NCBI RefSeq assembly: GCF_009831625.1
Contig: NZ_WUUS01000009.1
Coordinates: 62,001-126,000, forward strand
Source of the DNA: Halobaculum saliterrae
Lineage (GTDB): Archaea; Halobacteriota; Halobacteria; Halobacteriales; Haloferacaceae
Length of the DNA: 64,000 nt
Reading direction: 5' to 3'
Of this stretch, positions 52,991-55,286 are shown in pieces (the stretch's first letter is position 1; the number at the start of each line of letters is the position of its first letter). The notes under the pieces are model-generated. The model ran no database searches. It was not told the DNA's origin and saw nothing but the letters and a program-made list of their open reading frames with translations. The translations under genes were made by a program, and so were the position numbers.

Positions 52991-53410
52991 ATGACCGAGC
53001 GTGCGACGTACGCCACCGTCTACCTCGGCGCGCAGCTCTCGCCGGCGGAGTCGAGCCTGGACCTCGACTGGGCCGACGACGCCGGCGCCCGGACCGACGA
53101 CCACGAGTTCGCGGTGTCGACCGACGAACCCCGCGAGGCGTATCTGGAGATCCAGGCGTTCGACGTCGCGGAGTACGGCCACGACGTCATCGTGAACGGG
53201 GAGCCGCTGTCGGGGTTCGATATCCCGCCGAACGAGGGGTGGCAGCTGTGGAGCGACACCGTGACCGGCGTCGACCTTCGCGAGGGAACGAACACGCTCG
53301 CGATCGCGCGCGACACGGACACCGGCGACGCCTTCGCCGTCGGGACGATCCGCGTCCACTGGAAGGAGCCCGTCGACGGCGACCCCTCGACGGAACGGGT
53401 CGACTGCTAG
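52991..53410 (+). CDS. Haloarchaeal protein of unknown function (DUF7383-like)
   Basis: 139 residues from ATG 52991. Strand-rich and acidic, jelly-roll-like pattern: 'TVYLGAQLSPAESSLDLDWA', 'EAYLEIQAFDVAEYGHDVIV', 'GVDLREGTNTLAIARDTDTG' and 'GTIRVHWKE'. This order resembles a carbohydrate- or ligand-binding beta-sandwich. I recall a haloarchaeal family of this type as DUF7383. No signal peptide. Just upstream of the thermosome gene but with its own intergenic region. Confidence 0.75.
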   Translation: MTERATYATVYLGAQLSPAESSLDLDWADDAGARTDDHEFAVSTDEPREAYLEIQAFDVAEYGHDVIVNGEPLSGFDIPPNEGWQLWSDTVTGVDLREGTNTLAIARDTDTGDAFAVGTIRVHWKEPVDGDPSTERVDC

Positions 53411-53422
53411 CGACCGCCGAAT

Positions 53423-53434
53423 GGATATATAAAG
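53423..53434 (+). promoter_or_regulatory. Orphan TATA-like element
   Basis: 'ggatatataaag' is an excellent TATA match but no start codon follows at 25-35 bp in either direction. It lies about 190 bp above the thermosome ATG and might start a long leader or an unannotated RNA. Confidence 0.35.
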
Positions 53435-53464
53435 ATGCGATTCTGTCGTCTTGTTGCGGTCGGT

Positions 53465-53495
53465 ATATCCGTGGATATTGTCACCAGTTGTCACC
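53465..53495. promoter_or_regulatory. Inverted repeat and direct repeats upstream of the thermosome
   Basis: 'atatccgtggatat' (53465-53478) is a perfect 6-bp inverted repeat with a 2-bp centre. It is followed at once by two copies of 'ttgtcacc' (53478-53485 and 53488-53495) spaced 10 bp apart, one helical turn. They lie about 80-110 bp above the thermosome TATA box. The arrangement suits regulator binding sites for heat-shock control. Confidence 0.45.
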
Positions 53496-53574
53496 CATAA
53501 TAGGGCCGCTGTATTGCGATCTCTGTGAGACGAGCGATCTCGGCACCCGTGAACCGCAACCACAGGAGACCCAA

Positions 53575-53584
53575 GGTTTTATGT
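53575..53584 (+). promoter_or_regulatory. TATA box of the thermosome gene
   Basis: 'ggttttatgt' is centred about 33 bp above ATG 53613, leaving a leader of only a few bases. Confidence 0.6.
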
Positions 53585-53612
53585 AGAATCACAACCTCAT
53601 TAACTCCTGTAC

Positions 53613-55286
53613 ATGAGTCAGCGACGTATGCAGGGTCAGCCCATGATCATTATGGGTGAGGACTCTCAGCGAGTGAAGGACAAGGACGCACAGGAATACA
53701 ACATCTCCGCGGCGCGTGCCGTCGCCGAGGCCGTTCGGTCGACGCTCGGCCCCAAGGGGATGGACAAGATGCTCGTCGACTCGATGGGCGACGTGACCAT
53801 CACGAACGACGGCGTCACCATCCTCCAGACGATGGACATCGACAACCCGACGGCCGAGATGATCGTCGAGGTCGCCGAGACGCAGGAGGACGAGGCCGGC
53901 GACGGGACGACGACGGCCGTCGCCATCGCGGGCGAGCTCCTCAAGAACGCCGAGGACCTCCTCGAACAGGAGATCCACCCCACGGCGATCATCAAGGGCT
54001 TCCACCTCGCCAGCGAGCAGGCCCGCGCCGAGGTCGACGACATCGCCACGGACGTCGACCCCGACGACGGGGAGCTGATCAGGAAGGTCGCCGAGACCTC
54101 CATGACCGGCAAGGGCGCGGAGCTGGAGAAGGAGGTCCTCGCGGACCTCATCTACCGCGCGGTCAAGCAGGTCACCGTCGAGGCGGACGACGGCTCCTTC
54201 GTCGTCGACCTCGAGAACGTCGCGATGGAGACCCAGACCGGCCGCTCGGCGGGCGAGTCCGAGCTCCTGCAGGGCGCCGTCGTCGACAAGGACCCGCTCC
54301 ACGACGACATGCCCTCGACGGTCGAGGACGCGAAGGTGCTCCTGCTGAACGACCCGATCGAGGTCGAGGAGGCCGACGTGGACACGCAGGTGTCCATCGA
54401 CTCCCCCGACCAGCTCCAGTCGTTCCTCGATCAGGAGGAGAACCAGCTCAAGGAGAAGGTCCAGCGGATCAAGGAGACGGGCGCCAACGTCGTCTTCTGT
54501 CAGAAGGGGATCGACGACATGGCCCAGCACTACCTCGCGAAGGAGGGCATCCTCGCGGCCCGCCGCGTGAAGAAGTCCGACCTGAGCTTCCTGAAGAACA
54601 TCCTCGGCGGCAACATCGTCTCCGACGTCGACGCCGCCACCGAGGCTGACCTCGGCTACGGCTCGGTCTCCCGTGACGACGCCGACGAGCTGTTCTACGT
54701 CGAGGGCGGCGACGACGCCCACGGCGTCACGCTGCTGCTGCGCGGCTCCACGGAGCACGTCGTCGACGAGCTGGAGCGCGGCGTTCAGGACGCGCTCGAC
54801 GTCGTCTCCACGGCCGTCTCCGACGGTCGCCTCGTCGCCGGCGGCGGCGCCATCGAGGTCGAACTCGCCTCGCGCCTCCGCGACTACGCCGACTCCGTCG
54901 AGGGTCGCGAGCAGCTCGCAGTCGAGGCGTTCGCCGACGCGCTGGAGCTCGTTCCCCGCGTGCTCGCCGAGAACGCCGGGCTGGACTCCATCGACACGCT
55001 GGTCGACCTGCGCGCCGCGCACGAGGCCGGCGACGAGAACGCCGGTCTGAACGTGTTCTCCAGCGATATCGAGGACACCTTCGAGTCGGGCGTCGTCGAG
55101 ACGGCCCACGCGAAGGAGCAGGCGCTCTCCAGCGCCACCGAGGCCGCGAACCTCGTCCTCAAGATCGACGACATCATCGCCGCGGGCGACCTGTCCACCG
55201 GCGGCAACGACGACGAGGAGGGCGGCGCCCCCGGCGGCGGCATGGGTGGCATGGGCGGCATGGGCGGCATGGGCGGCGCGATGTGA
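53613..55286 (+). CDS. Thermosome subunit (group II chaperonin)
   Basis: 557 residues. ATP-driven folding chaperone forming double rings. Nucleotide motifs are intact: '[11 protein letters not shown]', '[11 protein letters not shown]', '[12 protein letters not shown]' and '[15 protein letters not shown]'. The C-terminal tail is a Gly-Gly-Met repeat ('[17 protein letters not shown]') that lines the folding chamber. Haloarchaea carry one to three paralogues; this one fits the main CCT1/ThsA-type. Preceded by a TATA box and possible heat-shock elements. Confidence 0.97.

Follow-up and report, generated by a model that had tools for sequence, protein, structure and literature searches.

The intergenic DNA upstream of the thermosome gene cct1 of Halobaculum saliterrae is, on balance, best understood as a single compound control region of about 190 bp that would act on cct1 over a long range and that contains a candidate dyad for a regulator. 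The sequences compared retain a distal TATA-like box, the dyad and an extended core promoter in the same sequence along the DNA, with the spacing between box and core held and the A/T content of the intervening DNA phase-locked to the core. The almost fixed distance of the box in most of the haloarchaea examined suggests an archaeal switch that would be unusually long and precisely spaced, and the turn-spaced box found across many families offers a direct and cheap test of long-range, helix-phased promoter control in archaea. No account of such an arrangement upstream of haloarchaeal thermosome genes was found in the open-licence literature, as far as its accessible text extends.

The locus and its extended core promoter

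The window (the whole stretch of 64,000 nucleotides that was analysed) carries cct1 downstream of a gene for a DUF7383 protein, which gave no match in NCBIfam. A gap of 202 bp separates the end of the DUF7383 gene from the ATG of cct1, and the sequence elements described below lie within it (Table 1). For comparison, 170 cct1 loci (30 + 80 + 60) were picked from the matches listed; they are a subset of the hits, spread over genera and chosen partly by hand. One of them (L163) was lost to the start-codon script, leaving 169 loci, which were aligned on the TAGAA motif of the core promoter.

Table 1. Positions of genes and sequence elements around the cct1 control region, numbered within the window
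Feature	Position	Strand	Description
Upstream neighbour gene	52991–53410	+	139 aa, DUF7383 (PF24108)
Inverted repeat	53423–53470		GGATATA (53423–53429) / TATATCC (53464–53470), arms 34 nt apart
Distal TATA-like box	53426–53433		TATATAAA, which reads TTTATATA on the minus strand; core TAGAA lies 158 bp downstream
Operator-like dyad	53478–53494		TTGTCACCAGTTGTCAC, centred 98 bp before core TAGAA; distance to the distal box 60 bp
Weaker block	53500–53525		around TGTATTGCGAT (53510–53520)
TGAACCGCAACCACA block	53550–53564		well conserved within the genus
Extended cct1 core promoter	53569–53601	+	ACCCAAGG (BRE region), TTTATGTA (TATA, 53578–53585), AGAATCACAACCTCATT
Thermosome (cct1) gene	53613–55286	+	557 aa; PF00118, E 7e-172; TIGR02339 thermosome_arch

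The most conserved part of the control region is the extended core promoter, which the preliminary description of this DNA had left unmentioned. TTTATRTAGAATCACAA and the bases after it are near-invariant among the cct1 loci, and in a profile of 115 thinned loci C.CGAAR stands two bases before TTTATATA. The core has the elements of a haloarchaeal basal promoter, with a BRE, TTTATA and a near-leaderless ATG, and its TAGAA usually lies 26–30 nt before that ATG. When the genome of the window was searched with the core 19-mer allowing up to three mismatches, only the two thermosome genes matched. In Halobacterium, mutants of tbpD and tfbA express less cctA, according to the accessible text of PMC2121645. 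The conservation of the core, together with the two-gene match, would be in line with an extended core specific to chaperonin genes and with the role reported for particular TBP and TFB proteins at Halobacterium cctA. Further upstream, a T-rich element, GnTTTTC, appears in the family profile at -65 to -60 from TAGAA, which corresponds to 53519–53524 here, where the window has no clear T-run.

The distal TATA-like box

The preliminary description had noted an excellent TATA box with no gene behind it. This box is present, is widely conserved and seldom stands beside a gene start. Its sequence, TATATAAA, arose in either orientation in 0.55% of dinucleotide shuffles of the intergenic region (53411–53612), and the 11 congeneric genomes all have either this sequence or a close variant (CATATAAA, TACTTAAA or TATTTAAA) 186–187 bp before the ATG. 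A strong box was defined as one scoring at least 7 of 9 against a TAYWTAAA-like pattern, for which the background is 1.5e-4 to 2.4e-4 per position. Strong boxes were found in 144 of the 169 cct1 loci within three classes of distance upstream of the core TAGAA, namely 143–148 bp (17 loci), 153–159 bp (126 loci) and 167 bp (a single locus), with none among the 169 at 149–152 bp. The steps between these classes are approximately one helical turn. Within the box the TAAA is near-invariant across loci, and the DNA separating box from core is widely diverged.

Within the family of the window, 101 of 109 loci have a strong box. Fifteen other families contributed 60 loci, of which 43 have one, and these 43 come from 10 of the families. 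A strong box is therefore carried by at least one locus in 11 of the 16 haloarchaeal families sampled, and the five families without one are represented by six loci altogether. Seven named cct1 orthologues (two from Halorubrum, two from Halobellus and one each from Halomicrobium, Halapricum and Halovenus; 68–81% protein identity) all have a box scoring at least 7 at 144–158 bp, and six of them also have a strong dyad. Four more distant named thermosome relatives with 46–58% identity (L011, L021, L037 and L038), which were excluded as paralogues, have neither a strong box nor a strong dyad.

The left neighbour of the box varies among loci, indicating that the box is not a by-product of one neighbouring gene. 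To the left of the box, the best-scoring coding frame is on the plus strand in 103 of the 144 loci, where the frames end anywhere from 256 bp before the box to 15 bp past its first base, and on the minus strand in 41, with candidate starts at varied distances. A candidate start codon lies 22–30 nt from the box in only five of these 41 loci, and the box was therefore rejected as the promoter of a divergent gene. As a separate observation, genes for relatives of the DUF7383 protein encoded at 52991–53410 that share its C-terminal tail are found ahead of cct1 in several families. A script recognized such a tail (...WKEPVD* or similar) before the box in 31 of 144 loci, missing several including that of the window itself, and a looser pattern recognized it in 39 of 144.

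Were the distal box a true TATA box, it would have a transcript of its own, either leftward and antisense to the upstream gene or rightward as a second start for cct1, with a leader of approximately 155 nt. We regard this as a serious but secondary possibility. The haloarchaeal consensus elements given in the accessible text of PMC4983044 are TTWT for the TATA box, CGAAA for the BRE and WW at -10, and the same text gives 1244 antisense start sites for Haloferax, a number that makes an antisense transcript easier to accept. For 81 of 94 annotated CDS in two haloarchaeal plasmid stretches, TTTATA occurred six times at -45 to -26 and the reversed TATAAA not once, which, small as these numbers are, marks TTTATA as the normal polarity. 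Read in this way the distal box is a TATA box of the TTTATA/TTWT type only leftward, as TTTAWRTA on the minus strand, and TTTATATA in this direction lends the antisense version some support. In the column profile of the 115 thinned cct1 loci, however, no CGAAA-like BRE stands beside the box in either direction, with T at only 10–25% at the five positions of the would-be leftward BRE and A at only 16–35% at the positions of the would-be rightward one. Rightward of the box, A/T rises to 48–62% at +14 to +18 in the same loci and could be read as a -10 element, although it is nearer the box than expected; leftward, nothing clear resembles an A/T pair at the positions where we would expect one. The scarcity of start codons 22–30 nt to the left, and a distance to the cct1 core that is nearly fixed even though the left neighbours differ, also argue against a separate transcript. 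With no BRE on either side of a box that reads leftward, the alternative or antisense start put forward in the preliminary description is unproven, and the box is best read as a putative component of the cct1 promoter and not as a promoter serving some other gene.

The dyad and the DNA between box and core

The preliminary description had also singled out two copies of 'ttgtcacc' one helical turn apart. These copies of TTGTCACC are real, beginning at 53478 and 53488 with a spacing of 10 bp, and the two 8-mer direct repeats that the region holds within 30 bp (the second being GCGATCTC) were equalled in 1.75% of shuffles. Both copies are nevertheless present in only 3 of 11 congeners, whereas the 17-bp element at 53478–53494 is kept in all 11 and can be read as a dyad, TGnYA...TRnCA, such that the pair is better seen as one dyad than as phased repeats. 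The motif obtained from the region by EM, [C/T]GTGnTAACnnTYnnCA, has TGnnA-type half-sites that face each other.

A strong match to the dyad model was found in 120 of 160 cct1 loci. Its centre is 101–107 bp from TAGAA in 87 of these, 97–98 bp in 17 and elsewhere in 16, and the position at 97–98 bp, about 7 bp off the majority, belongs to the genus of the window and three other genera of its family. Measured from the box, the dyad lies at 51–55 bp in 67 loci, 41–43 bp in 11 and 59–60 bp in 17, and at 64 bp in a single locus (L135) whose box is weak. The classes at 41–43, 51–55 and 64 bp look as if spaced by turns, and the 60 bp of the window does not fit among them. Given that the 17 loci at 59–60 bp fall off this series and the genus of the window itself breaks the spacing, we reject strict helical phasing for the dyad and make no claim of it.

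A perfect inverted repeat, the remaining element of the preliminary description, exists in the window but is judged to be a product of chance, since the region's three 7-nt inverted repeats within 60 bp were matched in number by 6.85% of shuffles (P of 0.07) and neither arm was found in the other 10 congeners, leaving it in one of 11 genomes. Orthologous promoters thus retain two of the three elements, the distal box and the dyad. The idea that the set may include binding sites for a regulator draws support from the dyad, conserved here and also present at the paralogue cct2, and none from the inverted repeat.

The A/T content between box and core is periodic. In 104 thinned cct1 loci the power reached 0.284 at 11.25 bp, with a second peak near 9.5 bp, and the largest value in 1000 randomly rotated controls was 0.034. 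With the dyad and the T-element masked the power was still 0.13 and 0.11, and with the set reduced to 28 loci it was 0.24 against a null maximum of 0.13. The corresponding values were 0.149 against 0.138 for cct2, 0.086 against 0.062 for the control gene radA, and 0.194, at 8.5 bp, against 0.075 for dnaK. Phase-locked A/T is strongest at cct1 and not unique to it, and because radA is phase-locked as well and dnaK has its peak at 8.5 bp, part of this periodicity may be of a general kind.

A/T that is phase-locked near 9.5 and 11.25 bp would also be expected if a chromatin protein, a halophilic histone or another, wrapped or bent the DNA at a set position, with box and core simply marking the edges of its site. 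The accessible text of PMC10128011 reports a periodicity of 10.4 bp at HpyA-bound loci and of 11 bp at HstA loci, but also that promoter enrichment of HpyA is undetectable. The HstA motif TCGNSSNCGA is absent from 53411–53612, and a chromatin site would leave both the dyad and the near-invariant TAAA of the box unexplained; we consider it unlikely. A small RNA or small protein encoded between box and core would account for their nearly fixed separation, and 7 of 11 congeners have two frames open, one per strand. It is nonetheless very improbable, as no frame is open in all 11, on which ground a small ORF was rejected, and as the plus strand has no supported pairing. An RNA gene was rejected in the same way, with nothing in Rfam at E up to 1 and only three pairs, none with two-sided changes, in an RNAalifold analysis of the plus strand of the 11 congeners. 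That the region is chance or leftover sequence without function is the least probable reading of all; the inverted repeat does look like chance, but the box and the dyad persist in 11 or more families amid widely diverged DNA.

Proposed mode of action, known systems and other genes

For the compound cct1 control region that we favour, the following arrangement may be envisaged. A dimeric regulator would bind the dyad, making it a candidate operator through which haloarchaeal chaperone genes may be regulated, and TBP or another DNA-bending protein would occupy the distal box. Box and core would lie on the same face of the helix, in which case the intervening DNA could bend or loop into one nucleoprotein complex. 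This complex would set the expression of the chaperonin, probably in response to stress, with heat a plausible signal. An enhancer-like form of this arrangement, in which the box is a second docking site for TBP about 15 helical turns upstream, a bent and phased loop joins it to the core, and a stress regulator, bound to the dyad within that loop, switches the chaperonin gene, is a speculative extension that we hold to be rather doubtful; if true, it would mean that long-range, helix-phased control has been kept across haloarchaea.

Several known systems can be set beside this arrangement. The hsp5 promoter, with its heat-induced TFBs (Lu et al. 2008, as given in the accessible text of PMC9133787), likewise belongs to a heat-shock gene controlled through the core promoter, but is reported there to need only BRE and TATA, whereas cct1 also conserves elements about 100 and 157 bp upstream. 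Given that BRE and TATA suffice for the heat response of hsp5, the upstream module may be dispensable for control by heat. The 1998 study of Haloferax cct1 by Thompson and Daniels reportedly points the same way.

A mechanism like that of Phr or HSR1 has not been identified in halophiles, according to the accessible part of a 2022 review (PMC9133787). As described in the same part, the Phr operator of Pyrococcus furiosus resembles the cct1 dyad in serving heat-shock genes, in its TGGTAA-type half-site and in having parts about 10 bp apart, but it overlaps the transcription start and represses, whereas the dyad mostly precedes the core TAGAA by 97–107 bp at cct1 and by 63–66 bp at cct2. The cct1 dyad does not overlap the start, as 104 of the 120 strong examples lie at this distance of 97–107 bp. 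The HSR1 operator of Archaeoglobus fulgidus, with the site CTAAC-N5-GTTAG, and the cct1 dyad are alike in TAAC/GTTA half-sites and chaperone targets and differ in the spacing of half-sites and the distance from the core. The upstream activating sequences of haloarchaeal gas-vesicle and bacterio-opsin genes adjoin the BRE. These are likewise upstream haloarchaeal sites, in their case for activators, and cct1 differs from them in having, in addition, a TATA-like box far upstream at a nearly fixed spacing of about 150 bp.

Beyond cct1, the dyad exceeds the 95% shuffle level in 24 of 29 cct2 loci, 10 of 29 dnaK loci and 6 of 30 loci of the radA control, the last where about 5% would be expected; the figure for cct1, the training set, is 137 of 168. 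Judged from these comparisons, the putative regulator site is common to cct1 and cct2. The arrangement recurs at cct2, where a strong dyad was found in 23 of 29 loci, 16 of them at 63–66 bp, and a box at 85–92 bp in 19 of 29. The excess at dnaK over radA is modest and rests on few genera, among which the genus of the window is one of the clearest; dnaK of the same genome carries TGATAAGCGTTGCCA, starting about 128 bp before its ATG.

Summed over the 11 congeners, TGNYAANNNTTRNCA matched 76 times in the forward orientation and 26 times when reversed as a control, and a looser dyad search of the genome of the window gave five hits against four for its control. A regulon defined through TGNYAANNNTTRNCA was rejected, as the neighbouring genes that were inspected (a peptidase M3 and a FAD oxidase by Pfam; a lipoprotein-like ORF and others by eye) point to no single regulator. 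Individual sites were noted in the course of these searches. In the genome of the window, TGTCAACAGTTAGCA forms a full dyad directly 5' of the start codon for a rubrerythrin-like/DUF7129 protein of 49 aa (L266:1501-1666; G000:C3:197832). An TGRCAAGACTTACCA site lies just 5' of an oligopeptidase F-type M3 peptidase gene (L373:1501-1539 and L376, with Pfam run on L373 only) and recurs in at least 10 of the 11 genus genomes among the matches listed. An TGGCAAATGTTGACA-like site just 5' of a FAD-linked oxidase gene (L361:1501-1551 and L369, with Pfam run on L361 only) also recurs in the genus.

The promoters of the two comparison genes have arrangements of their own. In the dnaK promoters of the family (L300–L328), a G.TCG..TAAA box stands about 84 bp upstream of AGTAACCTTTAACCG with a AATCGCAAGAC block between them, at fixed spacing. 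In the radA promoters (L330–L359), TTTCACTTTCAC and, after it, TGTTAACGAGG recur ahead of the TATA box.
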